A DNA stretch of 64,000 nucleotides from NCBI GenBank assembly GCA_016235425.1, contig JACRLC010000091.1, positions 1-64,000 of the forward strand, in the 5' to 3' direction. The position numbers and the translations under genes are program-made. This DNA comes from Chloroflexota bacterium (GTDB lineage: Bacteria > Chloroflexota > Anaerolineae > Anaerolineales > Villigracilaceae). Each line of letters opens with the position of its first letter. The first letter of the stretch is position 1. Positions 41,967-55,597 of the stretch are shown here, piece by piece. Under the pieces are notes generated by a model that was given only the letters and a program-made list of their open reading frames with translations, searched no databases and had not been told where the DNA came from.

Positions 41967-43318
41967 GCATTCACCACACGGTCTGTTAATTGAATTGCGA
42001 GTCCCAGATAGGATTCTGGCGAGAGGTTTTTCAAACGCCCACGCGTTTCCTCATCTACATCAATCGCTTCACACCATGACCTGTAGTCTGATTCCGTTAA
42101 AACGCGGCCGCGCGTCTGCTGCTTGAGCGACTCGTACGCGTCGCTTCGTCCAGCCGCGCGCAGGATGGTCTGCGCGCCCTCGGCGACGACTTCCCAGTGC
42201 GCGTTCAATTCGGCCTTGAGTTTTTCCTCATCCGCGGCAATGCGCTTCATGCCGCGCGTGAGGTTGATGTAGGCGAGAAGTGTATGCCCAAGCGCGGTGC
42301 CAAACGTGCGGCGGACAGTCGAATCGGACAGATCGCGTTGCAGGCGCGAGACTGTCAGTTTTTGGGCGTAGTGTGCGAAGAGGGAGTTGGCTACGCCGAG
42401 ATTGCCTTCCGCGTTTTCGAAATCAATCGGGTTCACTTTTTGCGGCATCGTTGACGAACCGACTTCACCTTCGACGACGGTCTGCTTGAGCGTACCGTCG
42501 CTGATGTAACGCCAAACGTCCTGCGAAAAATCAATCAGGATGGAATTGGTTAAATGGATGAGGTCAAAGTAGCGAATCCAATTATCATAGGGCAGGATTT
42601 GGGTGGTGAGCAAATTGGGTTCGAGGTCGAAGTGGGCAACGAAATCTTTGCTGAAGGAGAGCCAGTCAATTTGCGGGGCGGCGGCTTGCAGGGCATTGAA
42701 GTTGCCGACCGCACCCGTCAGCTTGGCTTCAAAACGAAAAGCGGAGATGTCATCGCGGGTCTTTTTGAGACGCGCAAGATAGACCGCGATTTCCTTGCCC
42801 AATGTGGTGGGGACGGCAAACTGTCCGTGTGTGCGCGCCAGCATGGGAATGGCACGGTAGCGGATGGCGAAGTCGGAGAGATTGGAGATTAGAGAGTTGA
42901 GATTAGGGAGGATGACTTTGTCGCGTGATTCTTTCAGAGCGATGGCTTGACCGAGGCTGTTGGTGTCTTCGGAGGTCAGGCCGAAGTGAATCCACGGAAG
43001 CAAATCTTCGAGCGTCGTGCCTTTTAATTTTTCCTGCAAGAAGTATTCGATGGCTTTGACATCGTGACGCGTCTCGCGCTCCTTGGCCTGGATGGATTCT
43101 GCGTCGGCGGTGGAAAATGCTGAAACAACGGAAGCGAGATGGGCGGATTCGGAATCGGTCAAAGGGCGAATCAAACCCACTTTAGCGAGAGCAGGCAACA
43201 GGTCGAGTTCGACGCGGACTCTATCACGCAGGAATGCAAATTCGGAGAAGAATCCACTTAATGGCGCGGTCGCGTCGGCATAGCGTCCATCCAAAGGAGA
43301 AAGGGCGTGAAGTGTCAT
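41963..43318 (-). CDS. purB: Adenylosuccinate lyase
   Basis: Cleaves SAICAR and adenylosuccinate in purine synthesis. Fumarase/aspartase-superfamily signature [16 protein letters not shown] (flexible signature loop) and the early [10 protein letters not shown] and [11 protein letters not shown] segments are present. 451 residues, the E. coli-like long form. Both ends overlap neighbours by four bases (purH-N stop and carA start), so it is translationally coupled. Confidence 0.96.
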
Positions 43319-43881
43319 TGGCTTAGGTATCCAGAGATGGTGGTGTCGTAGTGCGCGGTAACTTTGAAACCCTTGACGGCAAGGTCTTTGCGGAGGTTGG
43401 AGATTGTGCCGTTTTGCAAAGCGGCGAGGGCGGAGGCGTAGTCGGCAGGGTCGCAGACGAGGGTGACGCGCTCGTGATTCTTTGCGGCAGCGCGGATGAG
43501 GGTGACGCCGCCGATGTCTATGTTTTCGATGACTTCGGCGTAGGTGACGTCCGCTTTGGCGATGGTGGCTTCGAATGGATAGAGGTTGACGGCGACGAGG
43601 TCAATGTAATCCCAGCCGAGGTTAAGGAGCTGCTGGTGGTCTTCGTCGGTAGGACGGGCGAGCAGGCCACCGTGAATGGCGGGGTGCAGGGTCTTGACGC
43701 GGCCGCCGAGGATTTCGGGGGACTTGGTGTAGTCAGCTACTTCGGTGACAGGGATGTTGTTGTCGCGAAGTAATTTGGCGGTGCCGCCTGAGGCGAGGAG
43801 AGTCCAGCCGAGGGAGGCGAGGCTTTGGGCAAATTCGACGATGCCAGTTTTGTCGTGAACGGAGAGGATGGCGATGGGCAT
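43315..43881 (-). CDS. purH: IMP cyclohydrolase (N-terminal PurH domain as a separate protein)
   Basis: 188-residue MGS-like domain equal to the N-terminal third of PurH, which closes FAICAR to IMP. The family start (ILSVHDKTGIVEFAQSL), the KSPEILGGRVKTLHPAIHGGLLA region (read in parts) and ENIDIGGVTLIRAAAKN are intact, then the protein ends. The AICAR transformylase part is a separate gene at 44658-45836 with purN in between. The split looks genuine: both parts have proper starts and stops. Confidence 0.93.
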   Translation of the reverse strand: MPIAILSVHDKTGIVEFAQSLASLGWTLLASGGTAKLLRDNNIPVTEVADYTKSPEILGGRVKTLHPAIHGGLLARPTDEDHQQLLNLGWDYIDLVAVNLYPFEATIAKADVTYAEVIENIDIGGVTLIRAAAKNHERVTLVCDPADYASALAALQNGTISNLRKDLAVKGFKVTAHYDTTISGYLSQ

Positions 43882-43900
43882 GATGTTGTCCTTTCGGAAA

Positions 43901-44000
43901 AGCGGATTTCTGAAACCCCGCCCAAGAACGGCGGGGAAACGGATAGCGGATTCGGTAGCGGATATTGAAACGGATAAACGGATGAAAACGGATGTTGGCG
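43901..44000. repeat. ACGGAT-rich repeat between purN and purH-N
   Basis: Tandem-like array of cggat and acggat units (ggaaacggatagcggattcgg and onward) filling most of the gap between the two genes. It belongs to the family found in purM, purL and purF. Confidence 0.75.
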
Positions 44001-44002
44001 AA

Positions 44003-44602
44003 TCAGGTTTTTGTGTTGGAAATGATTGTTTTCAGTGTTTCTACGAGGATGCAGTGTTCGGCTTGGTGAACACGAGTCTCAAGGGATTCTAACGTGTCAT
44101 CTTTGTGGATGGGGACAATTTCGGTGGCGAGGACGGGGCCGTTATCCACGCCTTCGTCGGGGACGAGGTGAACCATGACGCCTGTGTGAGTTATTTCGCC
44201 GCGCTGGTAGGATTCAAAGGCTCGTTGGATGGCGTGCGTGCCGGGGAATGTTCCAGGCAAGGCAGGGTGGAGATTGATGACGCGGTTGGGAAAAGAGGAA
44301 AGAAAGGAAGAGGAAAGAATTCGCATCCAGCCAGCTAAAATAATATAGTCTGCTTGTTTGCTGGTCACCTCGTCTGCTAGTCGTGCGTCATAGTCGCGGC
44401 GAGATTCGTTTTCCCGTTTGGCGAAATAAATTGCTTCAACGCCAGCGTTGCGGGCGCGCGTCAGGCCGTAGGCATCCGCTTTGTTGGAGATGACGGAGAC
44501 AACGGAGGCGGGGAGTTCACCTGAGACGCAGGCGTCGAGGATGGCTTGCAGGTTGGAGCCGTTGCCAGAGATGAGAACGACGAGGCGGGTTAGTTTGGTC
44601 AA
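44003..44602 (-). CDS. purN: Phosphoribosylglycinamide formyltransferase
   Basis: Transfers formyl from 10-formyl-THF to GAR. Substrate loop ISGNGSNLQAIL, catalytic Asn/His in RVINLHPALPG and the Asp in DEGVDNGPVL are present. The start codon is TTG at 44602, preceded by AAGGA at about 8 bases; no nearby ATG fits. 199 residues. It lies between the two split purH genes. Confidence 0.94.
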   Translation of the reverse strand: MTKLTRLVVLISGNGSNLQAILDACVSGELPASVVSVISNKADAYGLTRARNAGVEAIYFAKRENESRRDYDARLADEVTSKQADYIILAGWMRILSSSFLSSFPNRVINLHPALPGTFPGTHAIQRAFESYQRGEITHTGVMVHLVPDEGVDNGPVLATEIVPIHKDDTLESLETRVHQAEHCILVETLKTIISNTKT

Positions 44603-44657
44603 AAAGATTTCCTTGATAAATGCGCTTCGACTGCGCTACGCTCCGCTCAGCGCGAAG

Positions 44658-45836
44658 TTAATGATGGAAGAGGCGGACGCCTGAGAAGATCATGGTCATG
44701 CCGTATTCGTTCGCGGCCTGGACGACAGTGTCGTCGCGTGCCGAGCCGCCTGGCTCGAGCACGTAGCGGACTCCGCTGGCGGCGGCGCGGTCAATGCTGT
44801 CGCGGAAGGGGAAGAAGGCGTCGGAGCCGAGGGTAACAGAGTCAAGCTTGGAGAGCCACTGCTGCTTTTCGTCGAGAGTCAGTTGTCGGGGAGTGTGAGC
44901 GAAGATTTCTGTCCACGCGGATTTTTCGTTGGGGGTCACATCGTCACGCAGGAATTGGTCAATGGCGTTGTCGCGGTCGGGGCGTTTGATGCCAGGTTTG
45001 AAGGGCAAATCCAAAACGGTTGGGTGCTGGCGCAGCCACCACAAATCCGCTTTTTGACCCGCGAGGCGAACACAGTGGATGCGCGATTGCTGCCCCGCGC
45101 CGACACCGATGGCCTGTCCATCCGAGATAAAACAAACGGAGTTGGACTGGGTGTATTTGATGGTAATCCACGCGAGGGTGAGGTCGCGGATGGCGGATGG
45201 AGGCAAGTCCTTTTTAGCAGTGACGATGTTGGTGAAATCGGCGGGCGTGACGAGGCGGTCATGGCGGCGTTGTTCGAAGCGGATGCCAAAAACATCGCGC
45301 ATTTCCTGAACGGAGGCTGGCTCGTAAGTGGGGTCAATTTGCACAACGGCGTATTTGCCCTGCTTCTTGGCTTTGAGAATTTCAAGCGCGGCAGATTCAT
45401 AGGCAGGGGCGATGATGCCATCCGAAACTTCGCGGGCAATAAGTTTGGCAGTGGGAACATCCACAGTATCGGATAACGCAACAAAATCGCCAAAGGAACA
45501 GAGACGGTCTGATCCACGGGCGCGAGCGTAAGCAGTGGCGAGAGGCGAGAGTTCGAGGTCATCTACAAAATAGGCTTTTTTGAGGGTCTCGGATAGTGGA
45601 GTGGCAACTGCGACTCCCGCAGGGCTGACGTGCTTGAATGAGGCGGCGGCTGGCAGGTCAAGCGCGGCTTTGAGTTCGCGGACGAGCTGCCATGAGTTTA
45701 GCGCGTCAAGAAGGTTGATGTAGCCTGGCGAGCCATTGAGTATGGAAATAGGTAATTCGGAATCATCTTTCATAAAGACGCGGGCAGGCGCTTGTTGAGG
45801 ATTCGTTCCATACCGCAAAACAATAACTTTAGACAT
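44658..45836 (-). CDS. purH: AICAR transformylase (C-terminal PurH domain as a separate protein)
   Basis: 392-residue protein equal to the AICAR transformylase part of PurH. It starts with VLRYGTNPQQAPARV, has the catalytic Lys-His in SFKHVSPAGVAV, then YTQSNSVCFISDGQAIGVGAGQQSR in parts and a final SDAFFPFRDSID..YVLEPGGS. It lacks the cyclohydrolase domain, which is supplied by 43315-43881. It follows the purM fusion by 12 bases. Confidence 0.93.
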   Translation of the reverse strand: MSKVIVLRYGTNPQQAPARVFMKDDSELPISILNGSPGYINLLDALNSWQLVRELKAALDLPAAASFKHVSPAGVAVATPLSETLKKAYFVDDLELSPLATAYARARGSDRLCSFGDFVALSDTVDVPTAKLIAREVSDGIIAPAYESAALEILKAKKQGKYAVVQIDPTYEPASVQEMRDVFGIRFEQRRHDRLVTPADFTNIVTAKKDLPPSAIRDLTLAWITIKYTQSNSVCFISDGQAIGVGAGQQSRIHCVRLAGQKADLWWLRQHPTVLDLPFKPGIKRPDRDNAIDQFLRDDVTPNEKSAWTEIFAHTPRQLTLDEKQQWLSKLDSVTLGSDAFFPFRDSIDRAAASGVRYVLEPGGSARDDTVVQAANEYGMTMIFSGVRLFHH

Positions 45837-45848
45837 CTTGAATTCCTT

Positions 45849-47498
45849 CTATTTTGTTAATTGAACCTGCTTATCACCTTGGACCAATTCACCGATGATA
45901 AAGGTTTCTTCGGGGATTTGGGCTTGAAGTGTGGCAGCGGATGATTTGTCCACGATGGCAACCATGCCGATGCCCATGTTGAAGACGCGGTACATTTCGT
46001 CAGTGGCGATATGCCCTTCGGACTGAATCAACCTCCAGAGCGGAGGAGGCGTCCATGCGTCAAGATGGATGACAGCGTTTAAATCGTCAGGCAGAATGCG
46101 CGGGATGTTTTCAATAAATCCGCCGCCTGTGATGTGGGCGAGGGCTTTTATTTCAGAGAGCAGGGAATAGAGAATAGGATAATAGGAGCGATGCGGGGTA
46201 AGGAGGGCGTCCGCGAGGGTTGAGTTGAGTTCGGAGAAAAATGTGTCGAGAGGTATGTCTGTAAAAACTTTGCGAATCAGCGAATAGCCGTTCGTGTGCG
46301 GGCCACTGGATTTCAGGCCGAGCAGGATATCGCCTGCTTTGATGTTTTGACATGGAAGGATTTCATCTCGCTCCAACACACCGACAATTGTTCCTGCCAC
46401 ATCGAATTCATTTGGCTGATAGACCCCTGGCATTTCTGCAGTCTCGCCACCGAGCAGTGCCATGCCTGCTTCTTTACAGGCTTCGGCGACGCCTGTCACC
46501 ACTTCGGCGGTTTGTACGGGGTTGAGTTTTGAGGTGGCGAAGTAATCCATGAAAAAGAGCGGACGCGCGCCCAGCACGAGAATATCATTGATGCAGTGAT
46601 TGACGATGTCGTGACCAATGCCGCGATAACGGCCAACGGATGCGGCAAGCTTTACTTTTGTGCCAACGCCATCTGTGGAAGCGACCAAGACGGGCGATTT
46701 CATTTCTTTCAAAGCGGAGACATCAAATAATCCGCCAAAGGAGCCGATGCCTGCAAGAACGGATGGGGTGTAAGTGGATTTGACGGCGGACTTCATCAAT
46801 TCCACAGCGCGGCTGCCAGAGTCGATGGAGACGCCAGACTCAGCGTAAGCGCTTTTAGGAATATCAACAGAAACGGATTCGGGAACGGATGGCTGGCGCG
46901 AAGCGGATAAACGGATGGCGGCCCAACTTGGAGAAGGAATCTCAACTAAAATTGGTTTTCCGTCCACTGATTTGAAGCGGATGGGAGGCACATCTGATTT
47001 TCTGCCTGGCGCAGCCGAAGTGGAAGAGGGCAGGGGAGGCAGTTTCATCCCTGGAGCTTTGTGGATGACACGATACAGATGTTTTTGCCAATCCTGAACA
47101 TTTTTAGGGACTAACAATCGCTTGTTTTCAAGGCGAGGCCTTCCAAAGTTATACAATTCACCCACCTGGGAGCCAGTGGCTGCCAAATAAGTTAATACCT
47201 GTCCCACATCCTCCATCGTCAATAAATGTCCAAATGCCTTGCACTCCACTATCAGGCAACCTTCCACCCATAAATCAAGATAAAGGTGTCCAATCAATGA
47301 TTCGCCTACCCATACTTCCACTTTCTTCTCCACTTCTACTTCCAAACTGGAATCCAGACATAACTCGGCTAAACGACGCTGGTAAAAAATCTCTTTATGA
47401 CCTGGCTTAAGTTCATTGTGAGTCCGCATTGCCAGTCCATTCACTTGATATGTCAAATCATCAAGCGCTGTTTTTATCAAACCAGGGTTTTCATTCAT
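45849..47498 (-). CDS. purM: GxxExxY (PD-(D/E)XK-like) domain fused to AIR synthetase PurM
   Basis: About 549 residues. Residues 1-150 are a GxxExxY-family domain: G33..E36..Y39 in GHKEIFY, then the nuclease-like D75...E85-x-K87 (DLWVEGCLIVECK). A linker follows, in which residues 194-210 (IRLSASRQPSVPESV) are encoded by an ACGGAT-type repeat. From about 213 a complete PurM follows (AYAESGVSIDSGSR, STDGVGTKVKLA, GGETAEMPGVY), which makes AIR from FGAM with ATP. No ATG, GTG or TTG lies at the PurM boundary, so the fusion is probably translated whole. ATG 47498 has GGAGG four bases upstream; a longer start at 47543 would read the repeat. The role of the extra domain is unknown. Confidence 0.9.
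   Translation of the reverse strand: MNENPGLIKTALDDLTYQVNGLAMRTHNELKPGHKEIFYQRRLAELCLDSSLEVEVEKKVEVWVGESLIGHLYLDLWVEGCLIVECKAFGHLLTMEDVGQVLTYLAATGSQVGELYNFGRPRLENKRLLVPKNVQDWQKHLYRVIHKAPGMKLPPLPSSTSAAPGRKSDVPPIRFKSVDGKPILVEIPSPSWAAIRLSASRQPSVPESVSVDIPKSAYAESGVSIDSGSRAVELMKSAVKSTYTPSVLAGIGSFGGLFDVSALKEMKSPVLVASTDGVGTKVKLAASVGRYRGIGHDIVNHCINDILVLGARPLFFMDYFATSKLNPVQTAEVVTGVAEACKEAGMALLGGETAEMPGVYQPNEFDVAGTIVGVLERDEILPCQNIKAGDILLGLKSSGPHTNGYSLIRKVFTDIPLDTFFSELNSTLADALLTPHRSYYPILYSLLSEIKALAHITGGGFIENIPRILPDDLNAVIHLDAWTPPPLWRLIQSEGHIATDEMYRVFNMGIGMVAIVDKSSAATLQAQIPEETFIIGELVQGDKQVQLTK
46871..46918. repeat. ACGGAT-type 48-base element in the purM fusion linker
   Basis: 48 bases matching 53674-53721 (in purL) at 45 positions by eye. 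It keeps the frame and encodes IRLSASRQPSVPESV on the minus strand. An inverted, diverged copy lies at 47516-47560, so the GxxExxY segment is bounded by inverted copies. Confidence 0.85.
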
Positions 47499-47515
47499 TC
47501 TGCCTCCAGACCAAT

Positions 47516-47560
47516 CATCCGTTTTTCCGTTTTGCGAAGCCATCCGTTACGGAATCCGAT
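47516..47560. repeat. Inverted ACGGAT-type element between purD and the purM fusion
   Basis: Plus-strand catccgtttttccg...gaagccatccgttacgg aligns with the reverse complement of 46871-46918 with few differences and one gap. It begins at the purD stop codon and ends 18 bases before the fusion start. Confidence 0.8.
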
Positions 47561-48816
47561 TATAGTGCCAGCCGCGCGATATCCTTCCGATACTGAACTC
47601 CCTCAAACCAAACCTTCCCAATATTAGCATACACATCCCTCACTGCCGATGCAATTCCATCCGCCCACGCCGTGACACCAAACACGCGCCCTCCCGCAGT
47701 GACGATATTTCCATTATCTATTTTTGTTCCCGCGTGAAAGCAAATCACGTTCTCAGGCAGCGCGTCAAAAGCAACCACTTTTCCGCTTTCTGCTTTTTCG
47801 GGATAACCCTTGCTCGCCAGTACCACACACACTGCCGCGCCATTTTTCCAGCGGATGACCACATCGTTCAATTTGCTATCCATACAAGCCTCGATAATAT
47901 CCAGCAAATCCGTTTCGAGCAGCGGAAGTACGATTTGCGTTTCGGGGTCGCCAAAGCGGCCGTTGAATTCCAATACGCGGAGTCCGTCTTCAGTCAGGAT
48001 AAGACCCGCATAGAGGACGCCAACGAACGGCGTTCCCTCATTCCGCAATCCATCAACCGCAGGCTTCAAAACGGATTCCATCGCTTCATTCATTAAAGCA
48101 GATGCAAAGATTGGCGCAGGCGCATACGCACCCATGCCACCTGTGTTGGGGCCGTTGTCGCCGTCAAGCAGTCGCTTGTGGTCTTGTGCGGGGAGCATCG
48201 GGACAACGGATGTTCCATCCGTGAATGCCATCAGCGAAACTTCCTGTCCACTCAACCTCTCTTCGATGACCACTTCATCCCCAGCCTCGCCAAATGCTCT
48301 GCCAACCAAAATCTCTTTCAGCGTGGACTTTGCCTCTTCAACGGTAGCAGGCAAAATCACGCCCTTGCCCGCCGCCAATCCCGAAGCCTTGATGACAATT
48401 GGATAATCCACTATTTCCAGATAACGGATTGCATCATCAAATCCGCTAAATGTGGCATAGCGCGCAGTCGGGATGTTGTGCCGTATCATAAAGTCTTTTG
48501 CAAAGACCTTTGACGCTTCAATCTGCGCCGCGGCCTGCTTCGGCCCAAAACAGCGGATTCCACTCCCCGACAGCGCATCCACCATCCCCTCCGCCAGCGG
48601 AATCTCAGGCCCGACAATTACCAAATCAATCCGCTTCTCCCTACAAAAGCGGGTGACTGTCGCGTGGTCACTTACATCCAACGGAACATTCTCGCCGCAA
48701 GCCGCCGTCCCTGCGTTACCAGGCGCGATATACAACTTAGTCAAACGCGGCGACTGCATCACCTTCCACGCCAGCGCATGTTCCCGCCCGCCCGACCCGA
48801 TGATCAAAACATTCAT
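47560..48816 (-). CDS. purD: Phosphoribosylamine-glycine ligase (GAR synthetase)
   Basis: ATP-grasp enzyme joining phosphoribosylamine and glycine. N-terminal loop LIIGSGGREHALAWK, ATP-grasp core IVIKASGLAAGKGV and metal-binding LEFNGRFGDPETQ are intact. 418 residues, normal. It starts 2 bases after the purF stop. The stop codon is formed at the edge of an ACGGAT-type repeat. Confidence 0.96.
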   Translation of the reverse strand: MNVLIIGSGGREHALAWKVMQSPRLTKLYIAPGNAGTAACGENVPLDVSDHATVTRFCREKRIDLVIVGPEIPLAEGMVDALSGSGIRCFGPKQAAAQIEASKVFAKDFMIRHNIPTARYATFSGFDDAIRYLEIVDYPIVIKASGLAAGKGVILPATVEEAKSTLKEILVGRAFGEAGDEVVIEERLSGQEVSLMAFTDGTSVVPMLPAQDHKRLLDGDNGPNTGGMGAYAPAPIFASALMNEAMESVLKPAVDGLRNEGTPFVGVLYAGLILTEDGLRVLEFNGRFGDPETQIVLPLLETDLLDIIEACMDSKLNDVVIRWKNGAAVCVVLASKGYPEKAESGKVVAFDALPENVICFHAGTKIDNGNIVTAGGRVFGVTAWADGIASAVRDVYANIGKVWFEGVQYRKDIARLAL

Positions 48817-52672: not shown

Positions 52673-55597
52673 TTACCCAGCACTTGCAGTTCTGGGCAAG
52701 TGTGAAGGATGAATATTAAAGGCGTGGATGAGGTCGGCGACGGGGATTTCGTTATCCGCAAGTTTGAGAACGGGTTCAGCGATGACCATGCCAATTTGGG
52801 TGAATGGCAGGTTTGTAAATTGCGCTTCGAATGTCGGCGCGTCAGCGGGGGTGACTTCGACGAGGAGACAGCCGTTGACTTCGGCAAATGGCGCGGCTGA
52901 ATTTATATCCAGACCAAGCCTTCCGCCAATGCACATCTCCGCGGCGGCGACTGCCAGTCCGCCTTCACTTAAATCGTGACACGACTTCACCAATCTGTTT
53001 TGAATTGCTTTGTGTAATGCTCGATAAACCTGCGGCGTCTCTTCGCGAACATCGGGAACGAACTGATGACTGATTACTGATAACTGATTACTCCCCACCA
53101 AATACACCACATTCCCCGCCTCCTTCAAATCCATCGTGACCGCCTTGTTGACATCGTGGATGATGCCGACGGCGGAAATCAACAGCGTGGGCGGGATAGA
53201 GTGACGCAGGCCGTCCGCGCCGATGTATTCGTTGTTGAGCGAGTCTTTGCCGCTGATGAAGGGCGTGCCATAGAACAGCGCCGCATCGTGACAGCCGCGG
53301 CAGGCTTCGACCAGTGTGCCCAGCGTTTCGGGACGAAGCGGATCGCCCCAGCAGAAGTTGTCGAGGATGGCGATACGGTCGGGATCAGCGCCAACGGCGA
53401 CCGCGTTGCGAATGGCCTCGTCAATCACCGACCACGCCATTTTGTAGGCGTCGCGTTTGCCATATTCGGGATTGATTCCGTTTGAGAGGACAATGCCTTT
53501 GACGCCGCTTGTGCCGATTGGCTTGATGACCGCCGCGTCGGAGGGCGCGTCTGCTTCGATGCCAGTCAGCGGTTTAACCACAGTGCCACCTTGCACTTCA
53601 TGATCGTAAATGCGGATGACGGGCGCTTTGCTGGCGATGTTTGGGGATGAGAGGAGGGCGAGCAATGTTTGGGAAACGGATTCGGGAGCGGATGGCTGGC
53701 GCGAAGCAGACAAACGGATGGATGGATTTGCGACTGGCTTTTCGATAATCGCTTTTAGATTTCTTTGCGGAATGCCTTCATGTAAAAAATCGTTGTCGAG
53801 GTCGAGAACAACTTTTTCAGCGTAGCGCACCACGAGGCGGCCTTTGCCAGTGAACGCGCCGATGTCTGTTAATTCGGTATCGAAGGTGTCGCAGAGGTTT
53901 TGCAAGGCGGGGATGTTTTCAGGCGAGACCGCCAGCACCATGCGCTCCTGCGCTTCGGAGAGGAATATTTCCCAAGGAGCGAGGCCGGGATATTTGAGGC
54001 GCACATCGAGCAAGTCCACGTCACAGCCTATAGACGAGGCCATCTCGCCGACTGCGGAGGACAGTCCGCCCGCGCCGCAGTCGGTGATGTCATTATAGAG
54101 TCCCATGTCGCGGGCGCGGACTATAACATCAATCAAGCCCTTCTCGATGATAGGGTCGCCAATCTGAACGGAAGCGCCAGAGACTTCGCCTGTCTGCGCG
54201 TCCATCGTCATCGAGGAAAAGGTCGCGCCGCGCAAGCCATCGCGCCCTGTGCGACCTCCGAGGACAATCACGCGGTCGGCGGGTTGCGGATTTTTGCGAT
54301 GTTTTCCTTTTGGCGCAATGCCGACACATCCACAAAAGACCAGTGGATTGGCGGTGTAGCCTTCGTCGTAAAGGATCGCGCCGTTGACCGTGGGAATTCC
54401 GATTTTGTTGCCATAATCCTGCACGCCCGCCACCACGCCCGATTGAATGCGGCGCGGATGCAAGACTCCCTCGGGCAACGAATCGGGATTGAGATTTTGA
54501 GGCCCAAAGCAAAGGATATCGGTGTTGGCGATGGGCTTTGCGCTGACCCCAAGCACATCGCGTATGACTCCGCCGACGCCTGTGTTCGCGCCCCCGAACG
54601 GCTCCACGGCTGATGGATGGTTGTGTGTCTCAACCTTGAACGAGATTTCGAATTCATCGTCAAAATCAATGATGCCCGCGTTATCCACGAAGGCGGAAAT
54701 AACCCAGGGCGCAGCGATTTGGTCGGTGGCGGATTTGAGATAGGTTTTGATGAGGGAGTTGATTTCACCCTCACCCCCCGGCCCCTCTCCCGCGGGGAGA
54801 GGGGAGTTTGTTATTTGAATTTTCGCTTTGAACGTCTTATGAACACAATGCTCGCTCCATGTCTGCGCGATGGTTTCAAATTCAACGTCGGTGGGGTCGC
54901 GGTTTTCTTTGATGAAATAATTTTGGATGGCTTGCATCTCCTGCAAGTCGAGCGCGGCGCGGCGTTCTCTGGAGAGAGCGAGCAGTTCATCGTCGGATAA
55001 TGTTCGGAGGGGAATGATTTCAACCGCGTTGCTGGATTCGGTTTCCTGCGGGAAGGAGGGGGTGATTTCGCCGAGTGTCCAGTGTTGGATGATGTTGTTT
55101 GCAAGCAGTTTGTTGGTGATGTCAGAAGCAGACTTTGAAACGGATAGCGGATGGTTGGGAACGGATTCCTCAACGGATTTTGAAGCGGACAAACGGATGG
55201 AAACGGATTCGTCGAAGGTGAGGATGAAGCGCTGACCAGTGGCAGTGCGGTGGACTCCGTTAAGTCCGAGTTCGTGCGCGGCGCGGACGATTTGCTCGGC
55301 GACGGGGTCGGTGACGCCGGGGCGGAGGGAAATTTCGAGAATAACAGAATCAGGCTCAGGCGGAGTCGGAGGCGAGGGCAATTCGTTCCAGGTCGCAGTC
55401 TGAGTCACAGGATCCGTTAAAAGTTCGAGCGCCAACTGCTGACAGTTCTCCTGTGACAGTTGGCCCTCGATAAAGTAGATGTCTTGAATTGCGATTCGTC
55501 GCAAGCCGCGAAAACCCAACGCGTGGGCATCTGTTAGGTAACTTGCGGATCGGGGATCAGGGCGGTTGGATTGGATGAGAAATTTATATGTTGGCAT
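52673..55597 (-). CDS. purL: FGAM synthase with N-terminal PurS-like repeats (PurS-PurL fusion)
   Basis: 974-residue protein making FGAM from FGAR. Residues 1-130 hold two PurS-like ferredoxin-fold repeats (ILEISLRPGVTDPVAEQI). A PurL linker follows (TWSEHCVHKTFKA), then AIRS-type N and C domains (VETHNHPSAVEPFGGANTG, given in part, and DHEVQGGTVVKPL). Three in-frame inserts are visible: residues about 130-154 and 626-642 (ACGGAT-type repeats, both with IRLSAS) and 265-278 (GC-rich palindrome). A near-consensus promoter lies directly upstream and the leader is about 10 bases, without a clear ribosome binding site. First gene of the pur-car run. Confidence 0.95.
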   Translation of the reverse strand: MPTYKFLIQSNRPDPRSASYLTDAHALGFRGLRRIAIQDIYFIEGQLSQENCQQLALELLTDPVTQTATWNELPSPPTPPEPDSVILEISLRPGVTDPVAEQIVRAAHELGLNGVHRTATGQRFILTFDESVSIRLSASKSVEESVPNHPLSVSKSASDITNKLLANNIIQHWTLGEITPSFPQETESSNAVEIIPLRTLSDDELLALSRERRAALDLQEMQAIQNYFIKENRDPTDVEFETIAQTWSEHCVHKTFKAKIQITNSPLPAGEGPGGEGEINSLIKTYLKSATDQIAAPWVISAFVDNAGIIDFDDEFEISFKVETHNHPSAVEPFGGANTGVGGVIRDVLGVSAKPIANTDILCFGPQNLNPDSLPEGVLHPRRIQSGVVAGVQDYGNKIGIPTVNGAILYDEGYTANPLVFCGCVGIAPKGKHRKNPQPADRVIVLGGRTGRDGLRGATFSSMTMDAQTGEVSGASVQIGDPIIEKGLIDVIVRARDMGLYNDITDCGAGGLSSAVGEMASSIGCDVDLLDVRLKYPGLAPWEIFLSEAQERMVLAVSPENIPALQNLCDTFDTELTDIGAFTGKGRLVVRYAEKVVLDLDNDFLHEGIPQRNLKAIIEKPVANPSIRLSASRQPSAPESVSQTLLALLSSPNIASKAPVIRIYDHEVQGGTVVKPLTGIEADAPSDAAVIKPIGTSGVKGIVLSNGINPEYGKRDAYKMAWSVIDEAIRNAVAVGADPDRIAILDNFCWGDPLRPETLGTLVEACRGCHDAALFYGTPFISGKDSLNNEYIGADGLRHSIPPTLLISAVGIIHDVNKAVTMDLKEAGNVVYLVGSNQLSVISHQFVPDVREETPQVYRALHKAIQNRLVKSCHDLSEGGLAVAAAEMCIGGRLGLDINSAAPFAEVNGCLLVEVTPADAPTFEAQFTNLPFTQIGMVIAEPVLKLADNEIPVADLIHAFNIHPSHLPRTASAG
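53674..53721. repeat. ACGGAT-type 48-base element in frame within purL
   Basis: Near-identical (45 of 48 by eye) to 46871-46918. It encodes IRLSASRQPSAPESV in the same reading phase as the purM copy. Confidence 0.85.
54766..54806. repeat. GC-rich palindrome in frame within purL
   Basis: CACCCTCACCCC arm plus hairpin CCCCTCTCCC-GCG-GGGAGAGGGG. It is the counterpart of 52291-52330 and encodes SPLPAGEGPGGEG in the same phase as the purQ copy. Confidence 0.85.
55138..55210. repeat. Diverged ACGGAT-type repeat in frame near the purL start
   Basis: Several cggat/acggat units in about 70 bases, encoding SIRLSASKSVEESVP and onward. It lies at the junction between the PurS-like repeats and the PurL linker. 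Confidence 0.7.

Follow-up and report, generated by a model that had tools for sequence, protein, structure and literature searches.

The locus at the 5' end of purM in the window (the whole stretch of 64,000 nucleotides that was analysed) raises the question of how a predicted nuclease domain, set between two inverted repeats, came to be read in frame with a core biosynthetic enzyme. The first-pass annotation had seen here a repeat-bounded cassette that landed at the purM 5' end and was kept as an in-frame fusion. The features of the window that bear on this question are as follows, with the two repeats at the locus referred to as the left and right arms.

47560-48816 (-): purD, the upstream side of the insertion site (TIGR00877, 539.9 bits)
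47516-47560 (-): left arm, lying between purD and the fusion ORF, its CGGA words read on the coding strand
45849-47498 (-): GxxExxY-PurM fusion ORF of 549 aa, identified by profiles and by a GGAGG before ATG 47498
47115-47459 (-): predicted GxxExxY / PDDEXK_3 nuclease domain (TIGR04256, PF13366)
46871-46918 (-): right arm, with ATCCG words, near reverse complement of the left arm, in the in-frame linker
45882-46850 (-): PurM domain (TIGR00878, residues 232-554, 359.9 bits)
43939-43993 (-): solo arm array between purN and the N-terminal purH ORF
53676-53720 (-), approximate limits: solo arm in frame inside purL (NPSIRLSASRQPSAPESV)
55140-55208 (-): solo arm array in frame inside purL (SIRLSASKSVEESVPNHPLSVSKS)

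The frame 45849-47543 (-) is open throughout and offers two starts, of which ATG 47498, just downstream of a GGAGG at 47503-47507, is likely the one in use (549 aa), the alternative being an upstream ATG at 47543 (564 aa). The PurM that follows the GxxExxY domain is complete. The annotated lack of a usual start codon at the PurM boundary is correct for the boundary itself, but the linker holds in-frame ATG and GTG codons 71, 52 and 44 codons 5' of the PurM core, so that an internally started PurM is formally possible. Elsewhere in the window, the PurH activities are split between two ORFs (44658-45836 and 43315-43881), one an AICAR formyltransferase of the PRK07106 type and the other the IMP cyclohydrolase half of purH; they flank a gene which we take to be purN.

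The two arms are inverted, as the annotation had it; its placing of the left one just outside the ORF is valid for the 549-aa start, whereas the 564-aa start overlaps this arm. The stop codon of purD sits at the outer edge of the left arm, and the right arm is translated in frame as the linker AAIRLSASRQPSVPESVS. Pairing between the arms extends over 24 nt (46871-46894 with 47538-47561, 88% complementary) and 21 nt (46897-46917 with 47516-47536, 86% complementary). The inverted-flank score of the tile that holds the locus is 51, the highest of 252 window tiles (median 19), of which five, the purM-locus tile included, score above 27.

The empty sites whose existence in relatives the annotation made a check on its reading were indeed found. 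The window's family was searched in 152 genomes, 53 of which gave a PurM match at E <= 1e-60. GxxExxY lies between purD and purM at 25 loci in 24 genomes of this family (a further filled locus, L148, is truncated at a contig end and stands outside the 25 complete ones), while 30 purD-purM junctions, 26 from the family and four from the order, are free of the insert. In 16 of these 30, PurD and PurM form a single ORF, as judged by open-frame length. Filled and intact empty alleles thus coexist at one fixed site, as is expected of a homing element. A single recent landing in the window's genome is rejected, since the fusion is present in 25 loci. The proposed repeat-bounded cassette, kept as an in-frame fusion, is therefore supported by the empty sites and by arm-flanked relatives; what has to be amended is the word 'landed', as the cassette belongs to a site-specific lineage that is being exchanged and does not reflect one landing.

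In the first six filled loci the PurD frame ends 0-84 nt past the last PurD-like residue, where the left arm begins or within it. Two genomes have a left arm that is open too, giving PurD-GxxExxY-PurM ORFs of 994 and 1081 aa. Among the empty junctions, L158 retains a piece of the GxxExxY C-terminal linker within a re-fused PurD-PurM ORF and is a scarred loss of the element, the scar being read by eye; the same inspection recognised no arm words or scars in the other 29. That false joins at the arm repeats, arising in assembly or binning, might have created these arrangements deserves mention, as most of the genomes compared are drafts and the bin G147 holds two filled loci. Such an artefact can be given hardly any credence, however, given that purD, element and purM lie on one contig, with one continuous GxxExxY-PurM ORF, at all 25 filled loci, and that filled loci occur on long contigs (G079 C12, 686 kb; G157 C5, 530 kb; G003 C1, 432 kb).

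The arms accompany the insert throughout. The left side has CGGA words and the right side TCCG words in 25 of 25 filled loci, at 7-8 times background, with densities of 4.9 (left) and 4.2 (right) words per 100 nt against 0.6 in the flanking purD and purM. Together with the tile controls, this rules out chance repeats. The same fusion without any repeat, which would speak against the cassette, was looked for among the relatives and none was found. The score for pairing of a locus's own two arms exceeds 27 in 21 of the 25 filled loci and is at or below 27 in the other four, and the left arm finds its best partner in its own right arm in just eight. From the arms of the filled loci we assigned by eye two element word types, GGAT and GGACT; left arms compared with right arms of the same type score a median of 34.5, as against 20.0 for the other type. 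An explanation in which the arms act in RNA or as hairpins, pairing across the ORF in the manner of an intervening sequence and so serving transcript processing or regulation, with their match kept for base pairing and not for mobility, has the inversion in its favour, as well as the occurrence of some flanking units as imperfect palindromes of 75-95 nt. It is nonetheless quite improbable: copy numbers differ widely between left and right arms, the right arm also belongs to the open frame into PurM at all 25 loci, the words recur elsewhere in the genome (see below), and Rfam gave no match at 43800-47700.

The history of the insert was compared with that of its flanking genes. In a tree of 114 GxxExxY domains, a single branch (SH-aLRT 97) separates the 25 purM-site copies from all others, and the filled and empty states require 12 changes on the PurD+PurM host tree (55 rows). 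In tests with 24 of the 25 filled loci (the second G147 copy was left out), the GxxExxY alignment rejects the host tree (delta lnL 965, AU p 1e-34), and the PurD and PurM alignments reject the GxxExxY tree (delta lnL 563 and 653). PurD and PurM also reject each other's trees, more mildly (delta lnL 106 and 147), so that other recombination must also act at the locus. Across 21 of the 25 filled loci, pairwise DNA identities correlate at 0.83 between purD and purM and at 0.38 between GxxExxY and host. Single pairs of hosts show the limits of the exchange: between G151 and G120 (L131 and L136), purD and purM are 0.89 and 0.91 identical and GxxExxY is 0.64 identical, with a change in identity that starts at the purD 3' end and stops near the first PurM-core codons; between G151 and G050 (L131 and L132) the left edge is reversed, from 57% in the last purD tile to 92% in the left arm. 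The element and its arms have been exchanged between hosts independently of purD and purM, and inheritance independent of flanking genes is a mark of homing elements.

These data also weigh on two other histories. The fusion is ruled out as a vertical relic by the rejection between GxxExxY and host trees. An insert that entered once and was then lost many times, with no movement since, would fit the single GxxExxY clade at this site and the scarred loss at L158, but is very improbable in view of the strength with which the two sets of trees reject each other, the finding of distant elements in close hosts, and the lack of a recognised scar in the other 29 empty junctions. Secondly, GxxExxY-PurM could be an ordinary host gene under diversifying selection (in defence, for instance), whose alleles are swapped by homologous recombination between the conserved purD and purM, without the nuclease driving its own spread. 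The mutual rejection of the purD and purM trees agrees with such a passenger role, as does the coincidence of the exchange limits with conserved coding ends. We regard it as unlikely, however, because it leaves unexplained the cognate inverted arms, the extra arms elsewhere, including those in other genes, and the recurrence of the same architecture at other junctions and in other phyla, which are described below; as regards defence, no PADLOC family matched the protein at E <= 0.01.

The predicted enzyme itself conforms to what was annotated, namely a GxxExxY/PD-(D/E)XK-like domain at the N-terminus of the purM product. Both profiles assign it to their families: TIGR04256 (GxxExxY) matches residues 29-143 with 76.4 bits (curated cut-off 35) and PF13366 (PDDEXK_3) residues 29-142 with 70.3 bits (cut-off 22). 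The residues originally named (G33, E36, Y39, D75, E85 and K87) are right in the 549-aa numbering, in which Q100 and Y104 render the QxxxY-type set complete; the corresponding nuclease-domain residues in the 564-aa numbering include E51, D90, E100-x-K102 and Q115xxxY119. All eight tested residues (G, E, Y, D, E, K, Q and Y) are identical in the 25 purM-site copies, and in 15 diverse copies the first seven are invariant and the last Y is found in at least 90%. The combination of ExK and QxxxY is the pattern of RecB, Cas4 and lambda exonuclease. One published gene was labelled cas4 or GxxExxY depending on the tool (PMC8934634). AlphaFold models of the window domain and of a relative, L189, are weak (pLDDT 65.7 and 73.5), and the matches obtained in fold comparison are weak as well (best Z 3.8 and 4.7, respectively), with OkrAI, EcoRV and PspGI among the weak rows for the relative.

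No PDB sequence matched up to E 1, and PHROGs matches were confined to the PurM part. LAGLIDADG, GIY-YIG and HNH are the common homing endonuclease classes, although homing enzymes of PD-(D/E)XK type exist; Pfam at E <= 0.001 returned PDDEXK_3, AIRS and AIRS_C alone, and none of these three classes. At the same threshold there was no Pfam match to a Y1 (HUH) transposase between the repeats, no match to Rpn (PF04754), and no transposase family of the kind that defines an insertion sequence among the profile matches.

Inverted arms are a general feature of GxxExxY genes. Such genes are present in 28 of the 31 genomes of the window's clade. For the order, 95 loci were picked by hand (leaving aside fragments and the second domains of tandem copies, and adding five places in G023 and G024), two of which were dropped for short flanks. 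Inverted flanks exceed the 95th percentile of mismatched pairs at 70 of the 93 remaining loci, and the 99th at 45, related copies in this set not being independent of each other; by the same test 23 loci are without arms. At the same score, the controls gave five of 252 window tiles and none of 142 tiles from empty purD-purM loci. Direct repeats, tried in place of inverted ones, are weaker (30 of 93 loci above the 95th percentile). The suggestion that repeat-flanked GxxExxY ORFs would be met with in other genomes was hence well founded, with the qualification that the word differs by lineage. Contigs were scanned with two narrower alignments, a diverse one of 15 GxxExxY rows having proved too variable; in viral contigs these two gave 122 and 69 short-pattern matches, none of which was confirmed as a relative. 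Three ORFs of 273-282 aa in G027 (L109, L110 and L111) carry a tandem pair of GxxExxY domains and have no arms by the test used; they are perhaps domesticated relatives.

The same arrangement extends across phyla. Another GxxExxY lineage served as query against named genomes; of at least 545 candidates the best 80 were taken, and 75 were used after five with short flanks had been dropped. The record titles of these best 80, most of them MAGs, include Chloroflexi, Planctomycetota, Bacteroidetes, Verrucomicrobia, Acidobacteria, Desulfobacterales, Cyanobacteria, Gammaproteobacteria, Elusimicrobiota, archaea and others. Inverted flanks score above 27 at 59 of the 75 loci, compared with nine of 434 tiles taken at a distance from the gene in these loci. 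With mismatched pairs as the control, 39 of the 75 lie above the 95th percentile, a level that is raised to 36 here because the cross-phylum loci share a word. In 20 hand-picked loci, which span many phyla, each word is a close variant of ACCGCAGAG-nn-CGCAGAG and is repeated, in sense on the left and antisense on the right. A relaxed form of this word is enriched about 20-fold (2.76 left sense and 2.99 right antisense per 150 nt, against 0.14 and 0.12 in 1439 tiles) and has the left-sense/right-antisense orientation at 54 of the 75 loci drawn from the best 80. At one locus in an Isosphaeraceae genome (L178), inverted arms of about 135-150 nt with a score of 190 surround GxxExxY, possibly marking a young insertion.

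The repeat word tracks the protein lineage and not the genome. In a set of 168 loci, the more alike two proteins are, the better the left flank at the first locus matches the right flank at the second (Mantel r 0.47, equalled in 0 of 999 permutations): the fraction of pairs with a flank score above 27 is 0.000 (to three decimals) of 3,569 pairs below 35% identity and 0.541 of 181 pairs at 70% or more. Within single genomes, a word is shared in none of 96 pairs below 40% protein identity, and the window's own genome has five GxxExxY genes with, by eye, five different words.

Fidelity to a site is likewise seen away from purM. For 25 pairs of GxxExxY loci outside purM, each pair drawn from different genomes, the neighbour genes match on both sides; these copies, too, hence keep to a junction. 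Two groups (L072/L078/L057 and L004/L106) are exceptions, with near-identical copies at different places, flanked by imperfect palindromes of 75-95 nt that are partly in tandem; the lineages are therefore mostly, not strictly, site-faithful. One stretch of G018 (L118, C14:56000-68000) has three GxxExxY genes at 59.6, 62.7 and 65.0 kb, in consecutive gene junctions, and G007 and G013 have matching copies at some of these junctions. Another junction, shared by two genomes of different families (L092 and L094), is filled by GxxExxY copies that belong to separate branches of the tree, which would suit a junction that is itself a hot spot.

Arms also occur alone. The window's word is present in 16 copies, with up to two mismatches and with the purM copies included, in its 5.0 Mb genome, where the word read backwards occurs once. 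At the two places in purL that hold solo arms, most of the aligned relatives (13 PurL sequences, one of them partial) have shorter loops; at the first of them the PurL of G018 has its own GGACT-type peptide. We inspected 20 solo arrays, hand-picked in G018, G024 and G086, and ran six of their ORFs through Pfam. At least five of the 20 are in frame within ORFs of known families, namely an inositol-monophosphatase-family gene (with a Pfam match in two stretches), leucyl-tRNA synthetase (leuS), a GHMP kinase, a PreP-type peptidase and an amine-oxidase-family gene, and the rest are intergenic, in unnamed ORFs or unclear; one of the six ORFs, L271, had no Pfam match. G086 combines 126 GGAT copies with the 1081-aa PurD-GxxExxY-PurM open frame in one genome (L166, L280 and L281).

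An effect of the element in trans on the number of words is clear for one word only, GGACT. Away from the purM locus, this word has 5-46 copies in all 12 genomes with a GGACT-type element, against 0-11 copies in 26 other genomes, 16 of which have none (p 1.9e-6). Several copies are nevertheless found in some genomes without a GGACT-type element, both GGAT-type (11 in G003, 10 in G119) and empty (11 in G110, 6 in G130, 5 in G127). Of the pairs that are independent on the host tree, an average of 7.3 agree with the effect and 0 go against it, in a test on 38 hand-picked genomes with a threshold of 7 copies set after the counts had been seen. Repeated with purM-locus copies excluded, it gave a median p of 0.03 over thresholds of 2, 3, 4, 5 and 8, and 0.125 at a threshold of 10. 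Filled genomes have more copies of the GGAT word than empty ones (p 0.0006, purM-locus copies included), but the number is not different between genomes filled with the GGAT and with the GGACT type (p 0.42).

What, then, is the insert? It has the structure of a unit, occupies a fixed site with intact empty alleles, is exchanged between hosts, carries words cognate to its protein and has extra arms elsewhere. It is probably a selfish nuclease element that homes to the purD-purM junction. The element would be compact: a single ORF, encoding a small PD-(D/E)XK nuclease (GxxExxY), framed by two inverted arms of short, lineage-specific repeat words, with this lineage occupying one fixed site. The nuclease may cut the empty junction, or DNA bearing its words, upon which repair from the filled allele would copy the element in, as in homing; the arms would serve as its binding and copying ends, and stray arms may be non-autonomous by-products. 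An element that enters a PurD-PurM gene would make PurD end within the left arm and would have PurM begin from the nuclease ORF. As the arm words can be read in frame, an insertion of this kind would couple the two, so that PurM would be lost along with the element, and the in-frame join may thereby protect the element.

Apparent repeated moves as a unit into one spot, together with cousins in many phyla that have matching repeats, point to an undescribed kind of selfish mobile element. We would extend this only tentatively, at somewhat less than an even chance, to GxxExxY across bacteria and archaea, which may form an undescribed class of mobile element: a RecB/Cas4-like nuclease of ~130 residues with cognate inverted word arrays, each protein lineage having its own word, would home to chosen junctions, its arms being copied in trans into intergenic and in-frame coding DNA, so that essential proteins would be rewritten (GxxExxY-PurM, and word-bearing PurL and LeuS). 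Selfish homing elements with cognate repeats would, if real, provide one cause for many genes of environmental genomes that lack an explanation and for the short repeats dispersed in them. Since word and protein co-vary, DNA specificity could be readable from the protein sequence, and this co-variation constitutes a natural data set for learning DNA recognition. The purD-purM site, for its part, is a clear case of a mobile nuclease joined to a core biosynthetic enzyme.

In the literature searched, most subscription journals lying outside its scope, we found no description of GxxExxY with cognate repeats, and no mention of PDDEXK_3 by name or of six repeat strings; the accessible excerpts of papers that name GxxExxY give no tested role for it. 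Several known systems are nonetheless comparable in part. Free-standing homing endonucleases, such as the phage T4 seg genes of 'intronless homing', are likewise small nuclease genes that spread without an intron or intein and are inherited independently of their neighbours (PMC2988022). Unlike them, GxxExxY is of the PD-(D/E)XK type, has cognate inverted arms that also occur elsewhere, and is fused to the downstream host protein. In RAYT systems a gene is flanked by inverted short repeats, which also occur solo in the genome and match the gene lineage. GxxExxY resembles such pairings of REP sequences (PMC3733652) with RAYT transposases as a gene with inverted short repeats, and here too cognate repeats both flank the gene and occur alone in the same genome; it differs in that no transposase domain was matched, the protein being a predicted PD-(D/E)XK nuclease.

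Rickettsia palindromic elements are, similarly, short repeats in frame in protein-coding genes (PMC10969869), and the GxxExxY arms show such in-frame insertion in purL, an IMPase-family gene, leuS and others; compared by description and not by repeat sequence, they are unlike the Rickettsia elements in having an apparent driver gene with matching words. Among nucleases, COG4636 is also a small, horizontally spread PD-(D/E)XK family that has been proposed to be selfish like homing nucleases, yet it is a different family, mostly with a migrated lysine, and in the accessible text its insertion is called virtually random and no cognate repeats are named (PMC551604). The Rpn or YhgA-like nucleases (PF04754) are likewise linked to recombination and horizontal transfer, but their profile is unmatched here, and the excerpts concerned mention no repeat arms (PMC5350276, PMC10327210). 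By their available descriptions, then, none of the homing endonucleases, REP/RAYT systems, Rickettsia palindromic elements or COG4636 has the combination of features brought together in GxxExxY.
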